Shown in pieces: positions 13,076-24,779 of a stretch of DNA of 64,000 nt (positions are counted from its first letter, which is position 1; each line of letters starts with the position of its first letter). The DNA is from an uncultured Pelagibacteraceae bacterium (GTDB lineage Bacteria > Pseudomonadota > Alphaproteobacteria > Pelagibacterales > Pelagibacteraceae), in NCBI GenBank assembly GCA_902596185.1, contig CACJSX010000001.1, forward strand, positions 55,183 through 119,182, written 5' to 3'. The position numbers were made by a program, and so were the translations under genes. Under the pieces are notes generated by a model. It was not told the DNA's origin. It saw nothing but the letters and a program-made list of their open reading frames with translations, and made no database searches.

Positions 13076-13894
13076 TTAATTTAAACTATCAACAAACGAT
13101 TTAAGAGCTAATACAAGTTTATCATCATATTCCATCATATGATCGTCATATTTTGTAAAATATGAATATTTAGGTTCACTTGCTAAATTAAAAATTTTTT
13201 TACCCATCCAAAATGGAACTATTTGGTCAGCCTCACCATGCATTACTAATACTGGAATATTAATATTTTTAATTTTTTCATTATTTTCATACTTATCTTT
13301 TAAAATTAAACCTACTGGAATATATGGATAAAAATTTTTCGCCGCTTCTATCATTGATGTAAAGGGCGTTTCTAAGATTAATCCTGCAAAATTTTTATTC
13401 TGAGTAATTTCAGTAGCAATGCCAGTTCCTAATGACTCTCCATAAATAATTATATCTTCTTCTTTTAGACCTTTTTCTTTAAGCCAGTTTATTGCACTAG
13501 CACCATCTGTATAAAGACCCTCCTCACTTGGTTTTCCTTTATTGCCGCTAAACCCTCTCCATGCAATAATTAAAAAATTAACATCCATGTCTTTAAAATG
13601 ATTTAACTTATGGATTCTGTTTTCAAGTGTCCCTGCATTTCCATGAAAATAAACTATTGTTTTATAACTTTTTAAATTTTTATTATGAAACCAGCCTAAA
13701 AGATTAATATTATCTGTTGTTTTGATATTAACTTTTTCAATATTAACTTCTAAATTATCTCCAGAATAATTATTCTCATCAGGATGATACATTAAATTTC
13801 TTTGAAAAAAGAATAAGAAAATTAAAACAATTAAGTAAATAGCAACAATACCAATAAATAATTCCAAAAAAAAATTCCTACGTTTTATTTTCAT
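13076..13894 (-). CDS. membrane-anchored alpha/beta hydrolase (ABHD13/Bem46-like)
   Basis: A 272-aa serine hydrolase. An N-terminal membrane helix (about residues 9-31) precedes the hydrolase domain. Motifs are VYFHGNAG (oxyanion), GESLGTGI (nucleophile Ser), GEADQIVP (acid) and DDHMMEYD (His). This set matches the Bem46/ABHD13-type peptidase-like family, whose substrates are mostly unknown. The gene overlaps the upstream MFS gene by 17 bp, so it belongs to the end of the TRAP-MFS operon. Confidence 0.85.
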   Translation of the reverse strand: MKIKRRNFFLELFIGIVAIYLIVLIFLFFFQRNLMYHPDENNYSGDNLEVNIEKVNIKTTDNINLLGWFHNKNLKSYKTIVYFHGNAGTLENRIHKLNHFKDMDVNFLIIAWRGFSGNKGKPSEEGLYTDGASAINWLKEKGLKEEDIIIYGESLGTGIATEITQNKNFAGLILETPFTSMIEAAKNFYPYIPVGLILKDKYENNEKIKNINIPVLVMHGEADQIVPFWMGKKIFNLASEPKYSYFTKYDDHMMEYDDKLVLALKSFVDSLN

Positions 13895-15116
13895 ATTTTT
13901 TTCTATTTAATATTAAAAAAAATATATAAGAAATAATACTTAAGATTAAGAAAACTGAAAAAGCTGATTTAAACGCAAATATTTCTGTGTGACCCATACT
14001 TTTAACAATATCTATCACTAAGCCCATTAGCCATTGCATTATGAATGTTCCTGCAAATATTAATAAATTGAATGAAGTTAGTGCTTTACCAGCAGAGTAA
14101 CCTGAAAAAGAAAGGCCCACAGCTGGCTGTGTAACTGATAAAAAAATTGAACTTAAAATAAATAAAGTTATGTAGAATGCACCCGCTTTTGGGCCTAGCA
14201 ATATAATCACAAACATTACAGAAAAACTAATTGGTAAACCTAATTTAAGTATTCTTTTTGCAGTAAAACCTATACCTGAAATTTTCGGTAAAAAATAACC
14301 CCATAAGAAAAAAGATACCAACATAGTTACATTGATCCAAAACAATCCTGTAGCGCTTTGAAGTGGTGTATAACCAGCAACTCTAGTCATCCATGGGCCT
14401 GCCCATAAAGTTTGTATAGCCATTAAGCCCCCATAATTAAATAAACCCATTGGAATTACACTTATAAAAAATCTATTTTTCCAAACTTCTGATAAAGTTC
14501 CAGTATTACTTGGCTCTTCTGACTCTTTATTTTTAGTTAAATTCCATTTTGGAATGAAAACTAACATTAAAAAAATACTAATTAAAATTAAGATAGCGAT
14601 ACCACCAAATATCCATCTCCATCCGAAACTAGGCAATAAAAGTTGTACAGGCAATGTAGATGACAAAAAACCTAATGATGCAATCATTAGCATCCATGAG
14701 TTTGCTCTTTGTTGTTGATTTTCTGCATACCATATTCTGTAACCAGTTAATGGAGCCATTAAACAAGCACTTACACCAACACCAATTAGAATTCGCGAAA
14801 CTAACAATCCAGAAAAACTTTCAGCTAAAGCAAATGATCCTGTTCCAACTAATGCAATTAATAAAAAAGAAGAGACAATTTTTTTTGGTCCATATTTATC
14901 TAACAAATATCCAAGGGGTATTTGCATACAAGCAAAACCTAAAAAATAACCCCCAGCTAACAATCCTAAATCAGCTGCTAACAAATTAAATTCTGAGGTT
15001 AATACCGGGGAAAGTGTTGCAGTAATTGCACGCAACAAACATGATAAAAAATAACCAAATGCAAATACAAAAAAAACAACAATAGCCTGTTTTTTTGGTA
15101 AAATATAATTTTCCAT
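13878..15116 (-). CDS. major facilitator superfamily transporter
   Basis: A 412-aa inner-membrane carrier with about 12 predicted helices and the MFS loop motif GYLLDKYGPKK between helices 2 and 3. Substrate cannot be read from the sequence; nitrate/sialate-type and organic-anion MFS members look similar. It begins 3 bp after the giant TRAP permease stop, so it is likely co-transcribed with the TRAP system. Confidence 0.88.
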   Translation of the reverse strand: MENYILPKKQAIVVFFVFAFGYFLSCLLRAITATLSPVLTSEFNLLAADLGLLAGGYFLGFACMQIPLGYLLDKYGPKKIVSSFLLIALVGTGSFALAESFSGLLVSRILIGVGVSACLMAPLTGYRIWYAENQQQRANSWMLMIASLGFLSSTLPVQLLLPSFGWRWIFGGIAILILISIFLMLVFIPKWNLTKNKESEEPSNTGTLSEVWKNRFFISVIPMGLFNYGGLMAIQTLWAGPWMTRVAGYTPLQSATGLFWINVTMLVSFFLWGYFLPKISGIGFTAKRILKLGLPISFSVMFVIILLGPKAGAFYITLFILSSIFLSVTQPAVGLSFSGYSAGKALTSFNLLIFAGTFIMQWLMGLVIDIVKSMGHTEIFAFKSAFSVFLILSIISYIFFLILNRKKYENKT

Positions 15117-15119
15117 TAA

Positions 15120-17771
15120 TTAAAAGTTTAAAGATATATCTCTATGAACTGAGTTACACCTTGCAACAAATTTAGCTTGTTCTTTCGTCAATCTTGACTG
15201 AAGTCTTAATCCAATATTATTTTTGATAACTTCATTATATTTTATTAACTGAGGTAATAAATTTTTATTAGCATCTTCTCTCCATGAAACTTCATTATCA
15301 AATAAATTAAAGGTTTCTGAGCTGGCAAGTAATAATTTTTGTTCATCTACTTCATCGTTATCTATAACAGTTATTAAATCATCTAATTTATTAGCAAATT
15401 CTTCTGTACCTGAAATTTCGCTTAATTTTTCAAAAAGACTGTCGATTATTGAAATTGAATTTTCATAGTCTTTATTATCTATTAAATATTTTAATTCTTT
15501 TATTTCAGATGAAAGATTTTTTAACTTTTCATGATCATTAATAAACAATGCTATTTGATCTAAGTTATCATATGCTTCATCAACATTTTTTCTATAACGT
15601 TTTGTTCTAGTATTTTTTGACTTTTGAAGTATTTCAAATTCTTTATTTCGAGATTCCCAAGTTTCAGGTATTTGGTTTTTTAGTTCGGTTATTTCTAATT
15701 TATAATTTTCTATTTTAAGTTCTAATTTATTTTTATTTGATGCATCATCCTTGTCTAGATTTCTGATTTCTGATTTTAACTTTTTAATTTTATTATCAAT
15801 TTTTCGAATTTTCTTCTGTTTTTTTCTAACAGCAAAATGGAGATCTCTATAATCCTCTGCAAATAAATTATATTCCTCCTCAGTTTTTTGAAGTTTTTTA
15901 ACTATTGCAAAAGTTCCAAGTGCATTATCAAAATGTTCTTCAAATATATCTAATTTATCTACTGGTAAATTTGCAGGCATTAGTTTTTGAAAATTATTTA
16001 TGGCACTTTTAATTTGACTCTCATTATTCTTGTAAATATCAAATTTATACTCTTGTAGGCAGTATTGTAATTTTGGATTCATTGGTGGTGGAGCAACATT
16101 GGAGGTCAAATACGTTCGTGCTGGCAAATAATTTACTAATGATGGATAAAAACCAACTATCCCAAGACCAATAAGTTGAAGAATTATAAAAGGAACAACT
16201 CCTTTCCAGATATTTAATGTGGTGACTAATTTTGATGCAACCCCTTTTAAGTAAAATAATGCAAACCCAAATGGTGGTGTTAAAAAAGATGTTTGTAAAT
16301 TAACTCCTATCATAACTCCTAGCCAAATTGCACTTACATTTGCACCTGGTTCGGCTAATAATATTGGTGCAATAATTGGAACAACAACTACCGCAATTTC
16401 AATAAAATCAAGAAAGAAACCTAATAAAAAGATTACAGCCATTACAACAATAAACTGCGTCCAAAATCCACCTGGTAAATCTTGTAAAAAATCTCTTACT
16501 AACTCTTCACCTCCAAAAGCTCTAAAACCAGAAGTTAACATTGCTGCACCCAAAAGAATTATGAATACCATTGAAGTAGTTACGCATGTTTCTGTAACAA
16601 CTTCTTTCAAGACATTGTCTATCTTATAAGATCTCCAAAAACTCCATATAATTCCAATTAAAAACGTGAATGTGAAAAATCCTGTAATCAATATTGCTGT
16701 TAAATCTCTCGTATCAACAGCTTTAATATTTAAATTATAATTCTTTGCGAGAAAAAATATAGGTATTACCGAAGCAACTGAAATTATTATTGGGTAATAT
16801 GCATCTTTCCTACCCTTATGAAGACGGTAACCTGCCATCATAGTTGCTCCAATTGCTCCAATAGAACCAGCTTGATTCACTGTGGCAATACCCATCAATA
16901 TAGATCCAAGCACAGCAAATATTAAGGCAAGAGGTGGAATTATTACCCCGACAACTTTTATCCAAAATTTAAAATCAAAGCTTCCTTTAAATGTTACTGG
17001 TGGTGCAGCTTTTGGATTTATTCTTGCATAAACAAAAACATATAACATATATAAGCCAACTAAAACTAATCCAGGTAACAATGCTCCTAAAAACATATCG
17101 CCAGCACTAGTAGAACCTACTCTGAACTCTCCAGGCATATTAAATTCACCTGTTAAAATTTTATAATCCGTCTGTCGAATTGTATTAGCTACATCAGCCG
17201 CACTAGCTAATTGGTCAGCAATTATAATTAAAACAATCGATGGAGGTATTATTTGACCCAAAGTTCCTGATGAACAAACGATACCACTTGCAAGACTTTT
17301 ATCATATTTATTATTTAACATGGTTGGTAATGAAATTAGCCCCATGGCGATAACCGTTGCTCCAACTATACCTGTAGTTGCTGCAAGTAATGCTCCAACA
17401 AAAATTACTGAAATACCCAACCCTCCCGGAATTGGACCAAACAGTTGCCCCATTGTAACTAAAAGATCCTCTGCAATCTTAGATTTTTGCAGCATAATCC
17501 CCATAAAAATAAATAACGGGATAGCAATTAAAGTATCTGTTTCTACATCCCAATAATTACTCCTGAAATTAGTAATCCCAGCAGTCAGCCATTCTTTTGG
17601 ACCATCGGTTGCGAAATAAGAGCTTACATCTCCTTCAAAAAGATATCCGAAAAAAGCTGCAAGACCTATTGAAATAATTGCTGAACCAGGTAAAGCGAAA
17701 GCTACAGGAAAACCTGAAGCCAATGCTCCTATCATTATAATTACAAGTAAAGCTAAAAATAAATGTTCCAT
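15120..17771 (-). CDS. TRAP transporter large permease with C-terminal coiled-coil domain
   Basis: An 883-aa protein. Residues 1 to about 565 are a DctM-type permease: GFPVAFALPGSA, AIPLFIFMG, GAVATGI-like LLAATTGIVGATV and the NLQTSFLTPPFGFALFYLKG signature. This part is longer than the usual 430 aa, with extra helices near 315-385 as in the mannitol/chloroaromatic-type TRAP family. About 310 residues follow with no membrane helix, containing heptad-like charged stretches (VRKKQKKIRKIDNKIKKL). The tail should face the cytoplasm or periplasm depending on helix count. It starts 3 bp after the small permease. I know no standard TRAP family with such a tail. Confidence 0.93.
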   Translation of the reverse strand: MEHLFLALLVIIMIGALASGFPVAFALPGSAIISIGLAAFFGYLFEGDVSSYFATDGPKEWLTAGITNFRSNYWDVETDTLIAIPLFIFMGIMLQKSKIAEDLLVTMGQLFGPIPGGLGISVIFVGALLAATTGIVGATVIAMGLISLPTMLNNKYDKSLASGIVCSSGTLGQIIPPSIVLIIIADQLASAADVANTIRQTDYKILTGEFNMPGEFRVGSTSAGDMFLGALLPGLVLVGLYMLYVFVYARINPKAAPPVTFKGSFDFKFWIKVVGVIIPPLALIFAVLGSILMGIATVNQAGSIGAIGATMMAGYRLHKGRKDAYYPIIISVASVIPIFFLAKNYNLNIKAVDTRDLTAILITGFFTFTFLIGIIWSFWRSYKIDNVLKEVVTETCVTTSMVFIILLGAAMLTSGFRAFGGEELVRDFLQDLPGGFWTQFIVVMAVIFLLGFFLDFIEIAVVVVPIIAPILLAEPGANVSAIWLGVMIGVNLQTSFLTPPFGFALFYLKGVASKLVTTLNIWKGVVPFIILQLIGLGIVGFYPSLVNYLPARTYLTSNVAPPPMNPKLQYCLQEYKFDIYKNNESQIKSAINNFQKLMPANLPVDKLDIFEEHFDNALGTFAIVKKLQKTEEEYNLFAEDYRDLHFAVRKKQKKIRKIDNKIKKLKSEIRNLDKDDASNKNKLELKIENYKLEITELKNQIPETWESRNKEFEILQKSKNTRTKRYRKNVDEAYDNLDQIALFINDHEKLKNLSSEIKELKYLIDNKDYENSISIIDSLFEKLSEISGTEEFANKLDDLITVIDNDEVDEQKLLLASSETFNLFDNEVSWREDANKNLLPQLIKYNEVIKNNIGLRLQSRLTKEQAKFVARCNSVHRDISLNF

Positions 17772-17774
17772 AAT

Positions 17775-18758
17775 TTAATTTTTCAAAAGTTTGTCGCTAC
17801 TGCTCATAAAATAACTTGTAAATTGAATTAACATTGAGACGGCAAATACAGCCAAATATACCGCCATCAAATAAAGCAAATATAATCCATTAGATCCTTG
17901 CTGGGTAATTTCAAAAGAAATAACCGGACCATTAATAATGCTTGCTTTTCCTCCCATACCTAAAAATAAAACTATGAGACATAAAGGTATGCCTAAAATC
18001 AATGACCCTATTGAATTAGTCCATGCTTTTTTACGTTCACTGAAACCTGTATATAAAACATCAACCCTGACATGTCCCTCATGAATTAAAGCATAGGCAC
18101 TGGCAAAAAGATAAAGGGCAGAATACCAAAATCGAACTAGATCTCCTTGAAATGCTTGTTCATACTCAAAAATAAATCTCGATAAAACTATAAAAAATTC
18201 ACTTCCTACAACAAGTACCGCTAACCAAATAAAACCTACAGATCTAGTAAAATATCCAACTACAAATGAAAGTAATATTAACGGAAAATGAACAAATGTA
18301 ATCCTAAAAGCTGGAACTACTAATTTAATTTTTAAATATTCCCCTAGTAATGGTTCAAGTAATTTTTCAACAACTAAAAAAGAAATTATTAAATCTGCAA
18401 GTCCAACAATTAAAACTGCCCAAAAAGATGAACGAATTATATATGCAGTAAATTTATTTAAAATTTCTGAATCTGCTGTCAATGTTTGTTTTATTGATCT
18501 ATTTACATAGAAAATTGACAAAAATATTGAAGCTAAATAAAAAAACAGTTGTAAGTATGCAAAAGTCAAAACTGTGTCTTCCAATGGTTTACTTAATTTT
18601 TTAAATCCAAACAATCCATAATGAGAAAATAAACTTTTTACACCAGGCCAATCAAACCAAACTGTTAAAACGTTATTAAATAAAAAAACAAAAGTAGTAG
18701 CTAATATTGAGTAGCTAAATATTCTAATTATTATAGGTAAATTGTTTTTTAAATACAT
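17775..18758 (-). CDS. TRAP transporter small permease (extended)
   Basis: A 327-aa DctQ-type membrane protein. The typical DctQ core is in the C-terminal half, with the signature ALIHEGHVRVDVLY. The family is usually 160-200 aa, so about 120 residues with extra helices are added at the N-terminus (residues about 12-130). It would bridge the binding protein and the large permease. It follows the dctP-type gene after a GC-rich hairpin and precedes the large permease by 3 bp. Confidence 0.9.
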   Translation of the reverse strand: MYLKNNLPIIIRIFSYSILATTFVFLFNNVLTVWFDWPGVKSLFSHYGLFGFKKLSKPLEDTVLTFAYLQLFFYLASIFLSIFYVNRSIKQTLTADSEILNKFTAYIIRSSFWAVLIVGLADLIISFLVVEKLLEPLLGEYLKIKLVVPAFRITFVHFPLILLSFVVGYFTRSVGFIWLAVLVVGSEFFIVLSRFIFEYEQAFQGDLVRFWYSALYLFASAYALIHEGHVRVDVLYTGFSERKKAWTNSIGSLILGIPLCLIVLFLGMGGKASIINGPVISFEITQQGSNGLYLLYLMAVYLAVFAVSMLIQFTSYFMSSSDKLLKN

Positions 18759-18834: not shown

Positions 18835-19971
18835 TTAGCTAATTCCTAAAGCTCTATTTCTTTGACTGATGTATGGAGAGTCTGACAAGTTAGTCCAAGC
18901 ACCAATTTCTTTTCTTGCTTTAATAAATGCTTTGTGCACTCTTGCAGCAAGTTCGCTGTGTTGTTGAACTTCGTCATACACCTCTTCTGCACCTTTAGCA
19001 AAAGCATCATAAACTTTGTCATTAAACTTCTCAAGTTTAACACCATTTTCATTTACTAGTCTTGCTAGTGCAGCACCGTTCTTAGCATTGTACTCAGCCA
19101 TTGTAATTTCATCTGCCCATGCACAAGCAGTTTTAATTATTGTCTGGTCTGATTTTGTTAAACTTGTAAACCAAGATTTATTGACACCACATGCTAACAT
19201 TGAACCAGGTTCATGCATACCAGGGTAGTAATAGTACTTAGCTGCTTCATGGAACTTCATAGCTTCATCATTCCATGGACCTACCCATTCAGTTGCATCA
19301 ATTGCACCTGAAACAAGGTTTTCGTAAATTTGTCCACCAGGAAGTGAGATTGGGGAACCACCTAGTTTTCCTAGAACTTGTCCGCCTAATCCTGGCATAC
19401 GCATTTTTAAACCTTTTAGGTCATTAGCTGATCTAATTTTTTTATTAAACCAACCACCCATTTGTACTCCAGTATTTCCAGCTATAAAACTTTGAGTACC
19501 AAAATCATCAGTCAACTCATCCCAAAGTTCTTGCCCACCACCATGGTGTATCCACGCATTAATTTCAGAATACGTGAAACCAAAAGGACAAGCAGTAAAG
19601 TATCCAAAAGCTGGGTGTTTTTTAACCCAATAATAATCTGCACCATGATACATTTGTGAATTACCAGAAGCAACTTCATCAAATGAGTCAAATGCTTTAA
19701 CTCTTTCGTTTGCAGCATAATAAGTAACTTGGATTCTACCATCACTCATATCAGCTATTCTTTTTGCAAGTCTTTGTGCACCAGTACCTAGCCCTGGAAA
19801 ATCTCTCGGCCAAGTAGCTACCATTGCTGCTTCCACTCTTTCTGCAGCGACAGCTGGAGCAGCTAAAGATGATGCAGCTACAGCAGCAACTCCAGTTGCA
19901 GCAGCAGTTTTAAAGAACTTACGTCTTGAAGGCGACTTAGAAGCCTTCAATGATTTTTTTTCTTTAATCAT
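18835..19971 (-). CDS. TRAP transporter substrate-binding protein (TakP-like), Tat-exported
   Basis: A 378-aa DctP-family periplasmic binding protein. The N-terminus carries a twin-arginine signal SRRKFFK followed by an Ala-rich hydrophobic stretch ending in APAVAA. The motif GAIDATEWVGPWND, with a conserved acidic/Trp pocket, is typical of the TakP/mannitol-chloroaromatic TRAP group, some of which bind 2-oxo acids or lactate; the substrate here is inference. A strong ribosome site AAGAGGAG lies 6 bp before the ATG. The leader and signal-peptide DNA resemble those of the second TRAP binding protein. Confidence 0.92.
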   Translation of the reverse strand: MIKEKKSLKASKSPSRRKFFKTAAATGVAAVAASSLAAPAVAAERVEAAMVATWPRDFPGLGTGAQRLAKRIADMSDGRIQVTYYAANERVKAFDSFDEVASGNSQMYHGADYYWVKKHPAFGYFTACPFGFTYSEINAWIHHGGGQELWDELTDDFGTQSFIAGNTGVQMGGWFNKKIRSANDLKGLKMRMPGLGGQVLGKLGGSPISLPGGQIYENLVSGAIDATEWVGPWNDEAMKFHEAAKYYYYPGMHEPGSMLACGVNKSWFTSLTKSDQTIIKTACAWADEITMAEYNAKNGAALARLVNENGVKLEKFNDKVYDAFAKGAEEVYDEVQQHSELAARVHKAFIKARKEIGAWTNLSDSPYISQRNRALGIS

Positions 19972-20275: not shown

Positions 20276-21604
20276 TTAGTTATTACATTCCTTTTCTAAC
20301 CAATTGGCAATACCTAAAAATCTATGATCATCGTACTTAGCACCAGTTAATTGGACGCCTAGAGGCATATTTGCATCACCTTGTAATAATGGAAGTGATA
20401 TACAAGGAGTTCCAAGATAAGACCAGACTTTATTAAATTCTGCAGAACCTGTTGTCTTTAAACTTTTGGGAGCAACACCGGGACTGGCAGGTGATAAAAC
20501 TCCATGATAATCTTCAAATACTTCTTCATAAGACTCGTAACTTCTTTTCATGAAATCCAAAGCTTCAGCATACTCTTTTGCTGAATGTTTATTGCCTTTA
20601 ACAATTGCATCTTGCATTGGCTTAGATAATTTTTTTTTATACTTTTTAAAATATAATCCGAAATTATTTGCTAAATCAGTTTCATACATAATTTGATGAT
20701 ATTTATGAATATCTTTAAAATAAGAAGGGTTGTCAAAAACCTCAATATTTTTTTTAAAAGATTTGATAAAATATTCAAAAGCTTCTCTGGATTTTTTTTC
20801 AATATTTTTCCAATAATCTGTTTTGTAAAAGATAAATTTAGGTTCAAACAAAGGACCTTTTTTTGTTTCTGCAAGCATATTCTCAGCTGAATAATGAACA
20901 GTTGCAGGATCAAAATTATCTTTTTTAATTAAAACTTTTGAAAGTAATGCAACGTCTTCTACTGATCTTCCAAATACACCTATGTGATCTAATTTTTCTG
21001 AAGTTTTAAGTACACCATTTCTTGAAATTAACCCGTAAGTTGGTTTGTAACCTACAACCCCACAATATGATGCTGGTCTTATTATTGAACCACCTGTTTG
21101 AGAACCTATTGATAAAGGCGCCATAAACGAAGCAACAGCTGCTGCAGATCCACTTGAAGAACCACCTGGAGTTCTTGAATGATCATGTGGATTAGTTGTT
21201 TTAGGAGGGCCAAGATATGCTAATTCAGCTGTAGCTGTTTTGCCCATTACAATTGCACCGGCTGCTAATAATAAATCAACAATTTCTGCATTCTGTGAAT
21301 AAGATTTTCCCTTTCTAATTACAGTTCCACATTCGGTTGGCATATCAAGAGTTCCAACAATATCTTTCACAGCCACTGGAACACCATGCAATAGTCCTAA
21401 AGGTTTACCTGACCTTCTATATTCGTCAGCTTCTGCTGCTTTTTCTAGTAGAAGTTTTTTATCAAAATGTGCCCAAGCCTTTACATCTTTTTCAAATTTA
21501 TTAATTCTTTCTATATACTTTTCACATATTTCTACTGAAGTTAATTGAGCATCTTTTATTTTTAAAGCAAGCTCTTCAGCTTTAAGAGAAAAAATATCTA
21601 TCAT
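20276..21604 (-). CDS. amidase (amidase-signature family)
   Basis: A 442-aa amidase-signature hydrolase. The Ser-cisSer-Lys triad is visible: Lys in VPVAVKDIVG (near 79), the cis-Ser in GGSSSGSAAA (near 152) and the nucleophile in QTGGSIIRPAS (near 178). The family also contains GatA, but no GatB/GatC neighbours are present, so a catabolic amidase is more likely. It sits 5 bp after the TRAP-2 large permease, which suggests that the imported compound, or a product of it, has an amide bond. No signal peptide. Confidence 0.9.
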   Translation of the reverse strand: MIDIFSLKAEELALKIKDAQLTSVEICEKYIERINKFEKDVKAWAHFDKKLLLEKAAEADEYRRSGKPLGLLHGVPVAVKDIVGTLDMPTECGTVIRKGKSYSQNAEIVDLLLAAGAIVMGKTATAELAYLGPPKTTNPHDHSRTPGGSSSGSAAAVASFMAPLSIGSQTGGSIIRPASYCGVVGYKPTYGLISRNGVLKTSEKLDHIGVFGRSVEDVALLSKVLIKKDNFDPATVHYSAENMLAETKKGPLFEPKFIFYKTDYWKNIEKKSREAFEYFIKSFKKNIEVFDNPSYFKDIHKYHQIMYETDLANNFGLYFKKYKKKLSKPMQDAIVKGNKHSAKEYAEALDFMKRSYESYEEVFEDYHGVLSPASPGVAPKSLKTTGSAEFNKVWSYLGTPCISLPLLQGDANMPLGVQLTGAKYDDHRFLGIANWLEKECNN

Positions 21605-21609
21605 TTCTT

Positions 21610-22971
21610 TTAGTTAGCAAATAACGTTTCTGGTAACCATAAAGCAATTGCAGGAAACATATACATTAAAAACATGGCAAAAATCACAATTGCTAAAAAC
21701 GGCATAATACCTCTAAAAATATCCATTAATTCTACGTTAGTTTTTTGAACTCCTTTTAAATAATAAGCCGACATTGCCATTGGTGGCGTTAAAAAAGAGG
21801 TTTGCAAATTTAAAGCTATTAACATTGCAAAAAAATATGGGTTAACTCCAAAAATTTCTAATAAGGGTAAAAAAATTGGAACAAAAATAATTAAAATTTC
21901 AGTCCACTCTAATGGCCAACCTAAAAGAAAAATTATAATTTGTGTAATTACTAGAAATTGCCAAGTTGAAATATTTATAGAAGTAAAAAAATGTTCGAAA
22001 ACTTCATGTCCACCTAGGTAAGAAAACACTGAAGAAAAAGTCCAAGATCCAATAAATAACCACATAATCATAGCTGTTGTTTTAGCAGTTAAAAAAACAG
22101 ACTCTTTAAAGTTTTGCCATTTAAGGGTTTTATAGAACCAAGATAAAATCAATGCTCCAAAGGCTCCTGCTGCTGCGGCCTCCGCTGGTGTTGCTATTCC
22201 AGCTAAAATTGTTCCAAGCACTAACATAATTAATCCAAAGAGAGGTACAAAAGAAACTAATACCTCTTTTAAAATTTCTGCACGAGGTGGGATGTCCTCT
22301 TTTGGAGGTCTAGGTGCTATTGATGGATTCAACCATGCTCTTATAACCGCATAGCCAATGTATAATCCTGCTAAAAGTAAACCTGGAAAGATAGCAGCTG
22401 CAAAAAGTCTTAAAGGTGATAATTGAGCAATAACTGAGTAAACAATCAACATAATGCTTGGTGGTATTAGAATACCCAAACATCCTCCGGAACATATAAT
22501 GCCAGATGCAAATTTTTTATCATAACCAGCTTTTACCATTGCTGGCCAAGCTAATAATCCCATCAACGTCACTACTGCACCAATAATTCCTGTTGCTGTA
22601 GAGAATAGTGTACAAGTAATTAATGCAGCAACAGCCATTGATGCTGGAAGCCTATGTGCGGCTAATCTTATAGCAAAAAATAATTTTGCAACAATTCCTG
22701 CTCTCTCAACTAAATATCCCATAAACAAAAACAAGGGTACAGCTGTCAGAACATTATTATCCATAACAGTATAAGTATTTTGAACAAATAGTTGAAAAAT
22801 TCTATTATCAAAAATGTGTTCCATCATGGTCGCGTCGTAGTAAGCGTAATATCCAAACGCGATACCCATCGCCATCAATGTAAATGCAATTGGAAAACCT
22901 AAAAGAACTGCAAATAGAAATATACCCATCATTAAAATTGCAACTTCTGGATTTGAAAGACTAAATAACAT
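21610..22971 (-). CDS. TRAP transporter large permease
   Basis: A 453-aa DctM-type inner-membrane protein of normal length. Motifs are GFPIAFTLMAMG, AVPLFLFMGYLVE, STATGIIGAVV and NLQTSFLTPPMAMSAYYLKG. It forms the ion-coupled channel of the second TRAP system. It overlaps the small permease gene by 11 bp and precedes the amidase by 5 bp. Confidence 0.95.
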   Translation of the reverse strand: MLFSLSNPEVAILMMGIFLFAVLLGFPIAFTLMAMGIAFGYYAYYDATMMEHIFDNRIFQLFVQNTYTVMDNNVLTAVPLFLFMGYLVERAGIVAKLFFAIRLAAHRLPASMAVAALITCTLFSTATGIIGAVVTLMGLLAWPAMVKAGYDKKFASGIICSGGCLGILIPPSIMLIVYSVIAQLSPLRLFAAAIFPGLLLAGLYIGYAVIRAWLNPSIAPRPPKEDIPPRAEILKEVLVSFVPLFGLIMLVLGTILAGIATPAEAAAAGAFGALILSWFYKTLKWQNFKESVFLTAKTTAMIMWLFIGSWTFSSVFSYLGGHEVFEHFFTSINISTWQFLVITQIIIFLLGWPLEWTEILIIFVPIFLPLLEIFGVNPYFFAMLIALNLQTSFLTPPMAMSAYYLKGVQKTNVELMDIFRGIMPFLAIVIFAMFLMYMFPAIALWLPETLFAN

Positions 22972-23548
22972 TTGATTTGTCTTCCTGTTGCGATGTTCTC
23001 ATTAACATTTGTTCTGTTTCTTCAGCAACTACCATTCTCATAGGCCATTGTCCTGTTTTGATACAAATGATTGATCTAAAAACTTCTGCAATTCCTTGAA
23101 TAACTAATAATGTACCTGCAGCAGGTATCATAGATTTAACCATGTAAATCTGTATTTGAGCTGGACTACTCCAACTTGTTTCTTTTATTTTCCAAGCTAT
23201 TGCAGCGTATTCATATCCGTAAAAAGCTAAAGCAACGACACCTGGAAAAAAGAAGACAAAATAAAGAACTAAATCTATCCAAGCTTGAGTTCTTTGATTA
23301 AATAATCGATAAATTACATCACCTCTTACATGAGCCTCAGTCGCTAAACAATATGCTCCCGACATCATTAGTATTGCCCCATACATTTGCATACTAAAAT
23401 CAAAATTCCATAAAGTTGGCTTGTTAAAAACATAAGCCATAACAACTTCATAAACTGTTCCACCCATTAAAATCACAATACACCAAGAAAATGCTTTACC
23501 CATTGAAGTGCTAAGTGTATCTGCAAATTTAATGAAAGTTTCCATCAT
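22961..23548 (-). CDS. TRAP transporter small permease
   Basis: A 195-aa DctQ-type protein with four predicted membrane helices and the family motif CLATEAHVRGDVIYR. It is of normal size, unlike the small permease of the first TRAP operon. The second methionine is an equally possible start. It follows the binding-protein gene after a poly-G/poly-C hairpin. Confidence 0.93.
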   Translation of the reverse strand: MMETFIKFADTLSTSMGKAFSWCIVILMGGTVYEVVMAYVFNKPTLWNFDFSMQMYGAILMMSGAYCLATEAHVRGDVIYRLFNQRTQAWIDLVLYFVFFFPGVVALAFYGYEYAAIAWKIKETSWSSPAQIQIYMVKSMIPAAGTLLVIQGIAEVFRSIICIKTGQWPMRMVVAEETEQMLMRTSQQEDKSNVI

Positions 23549-23580
23549 TAAAAAGTATATTAAATTAAACTAAAAAAAAA

Positions 23581-23598
23581 GGGGGTTTTTAAACCCCC
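23581..23598 (-). terminator. hairpin between TRAP-2 binding protein and permease genes
   Basis: GGGGGTTT-TT-AAACCCCC is flanked by A9 on the left and T6 on the right, so it can work as an intrinsic terminator in either direction. On the minus strand the U-tract is nine bases. It lies inside the operon, between the binding-protein stop and the small-permease start. Confidence 0.88.
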
Positions 23599-23621
23599 TT
23601 TTTTGAATTTACTAAAGTTAA

Positions 23622-24779
23622 TTAGATTTTAACTTTCTCAATTGGTCCAAACTCATTTTCATAAGCTAATTTGTAGTTCGGTTGATTCATCAACAGATAC
23701 TTCATAGTTCTCTTAGCGTATGCTTTTTGTGAGTCTACAACTTTCTTAAAGAAAGCATCCTTACCAGAAAACTCACCAATAACTTTATCCCAACCTTTTA
23801 ATTGCTCTGCTAGGATAGCGTCTGATGTTTGGTAAACATTAACTTTATGCTCGTTCATCAATTTAGCTAAGTCAGTTGAATATCTAACTAATGCTTTAAA
23901 GTAGTTATCTGAATTTGCAGCATAAGCAGCATTCTTCAAGATAGCTTGATGAGCAGGCGATAAGCTATTTAGTCTCTTTGTATTCACTGGAATTTCAAAC
24001 ATTTCCTGAGATTGGTGGAAACTTCCTAAGTGATAGTGTTTAGAGACATCCTGCATTCCAAACTGTGAGTCTGATGTAGGGTTGTTAAACTCTGCAGCAT
24101 CAATCAAACCAGTTTTCATTGCTGGTTGGATTTCACCACCTGGCAATTGTCTCACGACCATTCCCATAGCAGTTAAAACGTTAGTCGCTAGACCAACAGT
24201 TCTATACTTCATACCTTTAACATCAGATACTTTTGTTACATTCTTTTTAAACCAACCAAATGGTTGAGCTGGCATTGGCATATGGAAGAAGCCTGTGTAA
24301 TTAAATCCAACACTTTTTACTGCTTCTTCATATAATGCTCTTCCTCCACCGTACTCCATCCATCCCATAACTTCTTGAGATGACATTCCGTATGATGGTC
24401 CAGTTCCAAAAAGAGACGCAGCAGCATTTTTACCATACCAATATGCAGTCACCCAGTGACCCATATCAACTACACCTGAACTTACTGCTTGTCCAATTTC
24501 TGAAGTCTTGACAACAGCTCCAACTGGTTGAACATCAATTTTAAGTTCTCCAGCTGACATGTCGCTTACCATTTTTGCGTAATCTCCCGCCATTTCAAAA
24601 AAGATATTAGCGCCTGATGGCCAAGCCGCTTGCATCTTTAATGTTAGTGGTGCACCAAATGCAACATTTGGCATTGCTACTGCTGTAGCTGCCGCCGCTC
24701 CTGTTGCTGCCGCTGCTTTGAAGAACTTTCTTCTTGAAGGAGTTTTAGAACCCTTCAATGATTTTTTATTTTTAATCAT
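23622..24779 (-). CDS. TRAP transporter substrate-binding protein, Tat-exported
   Basis: A 385-aa DctP-family periplasmic protein. The twin-arginine signal SRRKFFKAAAATG closely matches that of the first TRAP binding protein. The mature part has the TakP-group pattern GLIDAAEFNNPTSD at the ligand pocket. Substrate unknown; the linked amidase hints at an amide- or nitrogen-containing acid. A TAGAGGAG ribosome site lies 7 bp upstream of the ATG. Confidence 0.92.
   Translation of the reverse strand: MIKNKKSLKGSKTPSRRKFFKAAAATGAAAATAVAMPNVAFGAPLTLKMQAAWPSGANIFFEMAGDYAKMVSDMSAGELKIDVQPVGAVVKTSEIGQAVSSGVVDMGHWVTAYWYGKNAAASLFGTGPSYGMSSQEVMGWMEYGGGRALYEEAVKSVGFNYTGFFHMPMPAQPFGWFKKNVTKVSDVKGMKYRTVGLATNVLTAMGMVVRQLPGGEIQPAMKTGLIDAAEFNNPTSDSQFGMQDVSKHYHLGSFHQSQEMFEIPVNTKRLNSLSPAHQAILKNAAYAANSDNYFKALVRYSTDLAKLMNEHKVNVYQTSDAILAEQLKGWDKVIGEFSGKDAFFKKVVDSQKAYAKRTMKYLLMNQPNYKLAYENEFGPIEKVKI

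Follow-up and report, generated by a model that had tools for sequence, protein, structure and literature searches.

What does a long extra domain at the end of a TRAP large permease do, and is it a genuine part of the protein? The question is raised by a 64,000-nucleotide stretch of DNA from an uncultured Pelagibacteraceae bacterium (the window), in which a DctM-type permease of 883 residues continues beyond its membrane part into a tail of about 319 residues. The first-pass annotation, made from the letters alone, had described a reading frame that runs without a stop into a charged, helix-rich domain lacking membrane segments, with an oversized small permease in the same operon. Each of these points is borne out, as are the coordinates given: the frame is uninterrupted, the tail is modelled as helices by AlphaFold2 (AF2), 35% of its residues are K, R, D, or E, and hydropathy places the end of the last hydrophobic segment at about residue 542, with none after it. 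The small permease has 327 residues, of which only 188–312 match DctQ. We regard the fusion as real, old, and widespread, and apparently undescribed.

Organisation of the operon

The genes are arranged in the order P (binding protein), Q (small permease), and M (large permease; Table 1). The PF06808 (DctM) match is confined to roughly the first 555 residues of M, and its score passes the Pfam cut-off. Against TIGR00786 (dctM subfamily), M is a near miss, scoring 258 bits, below the curated cut-off of 268.45 despite a strong E-value; that cut-off is a model threshold and no defining trait of TRAP transporters. The traits of a DctP-type TRAP system are all present by Pfam (DctM, an adjoining DctQ, and a DctP-family P in the operon). 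By its sequence, M is assigned to a DctP-type TRAP transporter, as its large subunit, within a distinct, widespread subfamily. Residues 319–385 of the permease part (16617–16817, minus strand) are poorly conserved; they include two hydrophobic segments (330–341 and 361–373) that are extra relative to DctM proteins of about 430 residues.

Table 1. Positions in the window of the tailed TRAP operon and its parts
Feature	Position	Strand	Evidence
DctM-type large permease (M) ORF, 883 aa	17771-15120	(-)	Window ORF
DctM permease part, residues 1-555	16107..17771	(-)	Pfam PF06808 5e-60, NCBIfam TIGR00786 1.3e-76, hydropathy
C-terminal helical tail domain, residues 565-883	15123..16079	(-)	Conserved fusion; AF2 pLDDT 92.2, pTM 0.80
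68-residue helix 604-671, heptad-like hydrophobic period	15759..15962	(-)	DSSP of AF2 models; periodicity test
Cys571 (tail residue 7), invariant	16059..16061	(-)	129/129 distinct complete tails
Cys872 (12 residues from end), invariant	15156..15158	(-)	129/129 distinct complete tails
C-terminal end CxSxHRDISLNF, most conserved tail stretch	15123..15158	(-)	Alignments
Small permease Q, 327 aa; DctQ at about 188-312	17775..18758	(-)	Pfam PF04290 2.2e-8
Q N-terminal extension, residues about 1-160	18279..18758	(-)	Unmatched in Qs of untailed sisters
DctP-type binding protein P, Tat-like signal, TakP/SmoM-like	18835..19971	(-)	Pfam PF03480 1.6e-52; PDB 4pet, 7ug8, 2hzk matches

Immediately upstream of the tailed operon is a second TRAP operon (20276–24779, minus strand), accompanied by an amidase-like gene; its P, Q, and M have 385, 195, and 453 residues, and its M is tail-less. 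The Tat-like leaders of the two P proteins are similar. On the other side, an MFS-like gene starts 3 bases past the stop codon of the tailed permease and is followed by an alpha/beta-hydrolase-like gene (13076–15116, minus strand; both judged by eye). Given the shared strand and the 3-base spacing, these two genes may be co-transcribed with the tailed permease.

Distribution and authenticity of the fusion

The tail region was found in 23 of 61 congeneric genomes (the window genome counted among the 61). Leaving aside the window's own genome, the congeners show 59–99% identity over the matched stretch; the region is incomplete in three of them (G038, G010, and G013). The tailed gene is also present in 30 other genomes of the same class, spread over 16 families, with about 50% identity through the tail; in one of these (G184), the match stops at query residue 739. 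A tail-only search of public genomes, built from ten tails and with the CxSxHRDISLNF end serving as a search pattern, returned at least 574 stretches encoding a relative, and the matches span Alpha- and Gammaproteobacteria, SAR324, and Desulfobacterota. The same tail gave no match in plasmids. The tailed permeases form one clade (100/99 branch), with uneven rates and an unsettled bootstrap. One genome (G207) holds two tailed permeases (L044 and L185), the second of which branches outside all other tailed ones.

Between congeners, dN/dS is 0.11–0.16 for the tail and 0.03–0.05 for the permease; the tail changes more quickly than the permease but is under purifying selection. The first-pass annotation had named two observations that would speak against a true fusion, namely, homologues in which the tail is a separate gene and a sequencing error that removed a stop codon. 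Neither was encountered. Among the loci listed, every tail shares its ORF with a permease, save two (L028 and L029), which start at the very edge of a contig. A sequencing error is contradicted by a reading frame and a length that hundreds of genomes preserve, and by a dN/dS well below 1. That an assembly or sequencing artefact joined two genes is scarcely credible, as its only argument is how short ordinary DctM proteins are by comparison, and the identical fusion recurs in hundreds of independent genomes with the tail under the selection just described. At the end of one congener's contig (L020:1–190, contig G038:C14), the tail is interrupted by a frame break, and its last residues (843–883) lie on the opposite strand, an arrangement that looks like an assembly inversion at the contig end.

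Structure of the tail

The length of the tail is near-constant (298–325 residues, mostly 317–325, in 129 distinct complete tails). Compared with distant relatives, the tail is 27% identical and the permease 66%. Across 41 aligned members, N565, L568, C571, R649, W705, W830, R831, G854, C872, and F883 are invariant. Every one of the 129 tails contains exactly two cysteines, in the same two columns; the number of cysteines in the permease part varies from 0 to 5.

AF2, run on the tail alignment, gave a confident all-helical structure (scores in Table 1). The tail had been read at first as a heptad-like coiled coil, and this stands for one helix: the averaged hydrophobicity of residues 604–671 has a 3.5-residue period stronger than in all 2000 shuffles, so that "heptad-like" is apt there. 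The description does not extend to the remainder; as modelled, the whole tail is a folded bundle of about 11 helices and no simple coiled coil. In the full-length AF2 model, the permease half is poor, and the model gives no reliable placement of the tail on the permease.

Comparison of the window tail with Pfam, NCBIfam, and PHROGs gave nothing above cut-off and only generic coiled-coil-like matches; for Pfam, both the single window tail and the 41 members were used. Foldseek searches of the tail against the PDB and viral structures gave no hit at E ≤ 0.001, and the best query TM-score among the matches listed was at most 0.28. We found no description of this permease tail in the literature.

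Location of the tail

The structure of PpSiaM, which is not fused, is N-out/C-out (PMC9971032). In the tailed permeases, the loop that leads into the last membrane segment (residues 489–526) is rich in lysine and arginine, with 3.1 K+R versus 0.5 D+E per sequence. The C-out topology of SiaM and the charge of this loop would place the tail outside the inner membrane, and the lone invariant cysteine pair is in keeping with disulfide formation in an oxidising environment. From homology, loop charge, and cysteine pattern together, the tail is likely to be on the periplasmic side, and a Cys571–Cys872 disulfide joining both ends of the tail is strongly predicted. DsbB was found in four of the seven tailed congeners tested, which are all four with completeness of at least 90%; it was not found in the window genome, which is 70% complete. 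A DsbA-like Thioredoxin_4 protein is present in six of the seven, the window genome among them.

The small permease and the binding protein

Beside a tailed M, Q has 317–386 residues and carries the N-terminal extension in all 109 distinct complete sequences; these were gathered with a length filter of 300–400 residues, and nearly all the loci listed agree. The untailed Qs sampled start at about position 167–185 of the 347-position Q profile, with one exception (L171). Among relatives of the same class that have no tail, P is TakP-like, Q mostly has about 160–240 residues, and M mostly about 520–600. Going by the untailed sisters sampled, the Q extension appears specific to tailed systems. The exception, L171:4913–7957, is another TRAP variant, with a 700-residue M that contains an internal membrane-like insert of about 130 residues and a 306-residue Q with a different N-terminus. 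We considered it as an intermediate between untailed and tailed M and rejected it, its extra length being internal and without a tail match.

The binding protein P is closest to structures of the TakP type, among them TakP itself, the P component of the Rhodobacter sphaeroides alpha-keto acid transporter TakPQM (2HZK/2HZL), with homology over the full length; the alignment to 2hzk reaches chain residue 352 of 365. In TakP, pyruvate and sodium are bound by Tyr100, Gln156, Arg177, Glu214, Trp215, and Glu240 (PMC1839085), and all six residues are identical in P. P is likely to bind a 2-oxo acid or a related carboxylate together with a cation, and P itself is probably a homodimer, perhaps a helix-swapped one. 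The recurrent gene neighbours (topoisomerase IV A-like, BioY-like, and a probable leucyl-tRNA–protein transferase, assigned by eye) are housekeeping-like and thus suggest no functional link and no clue to the substrate.

Comparison with known TRAP systems

Operons related to that of TakPQM have a TakP-like P, a Q of about 180 residues, and an M of about 525 residues, without a tail. The sialic acid transporters HiSiaQM and PpSiaQM share with the tailed system the DctM elevator fold, a membrane component made of Q and M, and a periplasmic C-terminus (a predicted one in the tailed M); they differ in that M ends just past the last membrane helix, and they have neither tail nor Q extension. The closest analogy is the TAXI transporter VcGluQM, whose membrane component also has a C-terminal extension with a periplasmic domain (in our case, probably periplasmic). 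This domain, the DUF3394 claw, touches the binding protein in a published model (PMC11574862). The claw is mostly β-sheet, is flanked by extra membrane helices, and is part of a TAXI system, whereas the tail consists of helices alone, comes after the last membrane helix, and belongs to a DctP-type system; Pfam gave no DUF3394 match in the C-terminal extension of M up to E = 1. With its different fold and position, the tail may work like the claw but is not the claw. A 2024 paper states that no such extension has been reported for DctP-type TRAPs (PMC11574862). This agrees with the first impression that the tail is not standard in TRAP families; it is, however, the standard form of a widespread subfamily and no local oddity.

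Possible role of the tail

Our best explanation, to which we give an even chance, is that the tail and the Q extension form a periplasmic docking or stator module. The disulfide-closed tail would sit in the periplasm, after the last membrane segment of M. The Cys571–Cys872 bond would keep HRDISLNF, the conserved peptide that ends the tail, close to where the tail begins, beside the permease, with the more variable long helices reaching outward. Tail and Q extension together would position P over the elevator domain, P being probably a homodimer that carries a cation and a 2-oxo acid or related carboxylate. Counting against a docking role, the untailed sisters have no tail and yet use a P of the same type; docking therefore does not require a tail. 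We only tentatively propose that the new periplasmic domain and the matching Q extension make a DctP-type TRAP dock or hold its binding protein actively. Within that proposal, the module could, by analogy and with equal caution, be an independent DctP-type counterpart of both the TAXI claw and the periplasmic domain found in the maltose ABC transporter.

Linked evolution of the parts was assessed by mirror-distance analysis, that is, by partial correlation of evolutionary distances in 61 non-redundant systems. The highest partial correlation of the tail is with the Q extension (0.35, bootstrap 0.20–0.48), equal to that of the known contact pair Q core–M (0.35); for tail and P, it is lower (0.21, interval 0.01–0.40), and for Q extension and P, it is 0.27. 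Shared history confounds correlations of this kind, and the result is no more than suggestive. The main rival reading, which we think rather improbable, makes use of the same result: the tail would mainly brace the Q extension and stabilise an unusual Q–M assembly, with no direct handling of P. The co-occurrence of tail and Q extension and the top rank of their correlation are in its favour, but the Q extension correlates with P too, and its hydropathy gives no clear topology.

The tail might instead be a stalk in the periplasm, through which transporters oligomerise or are anchored to peptidoglycan or the outer membrane. The 68-residue helix, about 100 Å long by helix geometry, with its heptad-like periodicity, and a sequence that changes fast at constant length would suit a stalk. 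However, Pfam, NCBIfam, and fold searches gave no match to domains that bind peptidoglycan or the envelope, and the very end of the tail is its most conserved part, which the disulfide would hold near the membrane and not at a distal tip. We consider this reading unlikely, and less likely than docking or a Q–M brace. Tethering of the transporter and the formation of arrays, both raised in the first-pass annotation, are speculative. In the cytoplasm, charged helical domains are nothing unusual, and the first-pass annotation had suggested that the tail binds a regulator; a cytoplasmic regulatory domain is very improbable given the inferred periplasmic side, as the C-out topology of SiaM, the K/R-rich loop before the last helix, and the lone cysteine pair, invariant in 129/129 tails, stand against it.

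Significance

The annotation "TRAP large permease" conceals a distinct subfamily, and the tail domain fills a gap in the family libraries. The extra domain is conserved, has sharply defined invariant residues, and is spread over hundreds of species in a subfamily rich in marine members. Recruitment and release of the binding protein by the membrane component of a TRAP transporter are still unsettled in mechanism, and the tail offers a direct handle on them.
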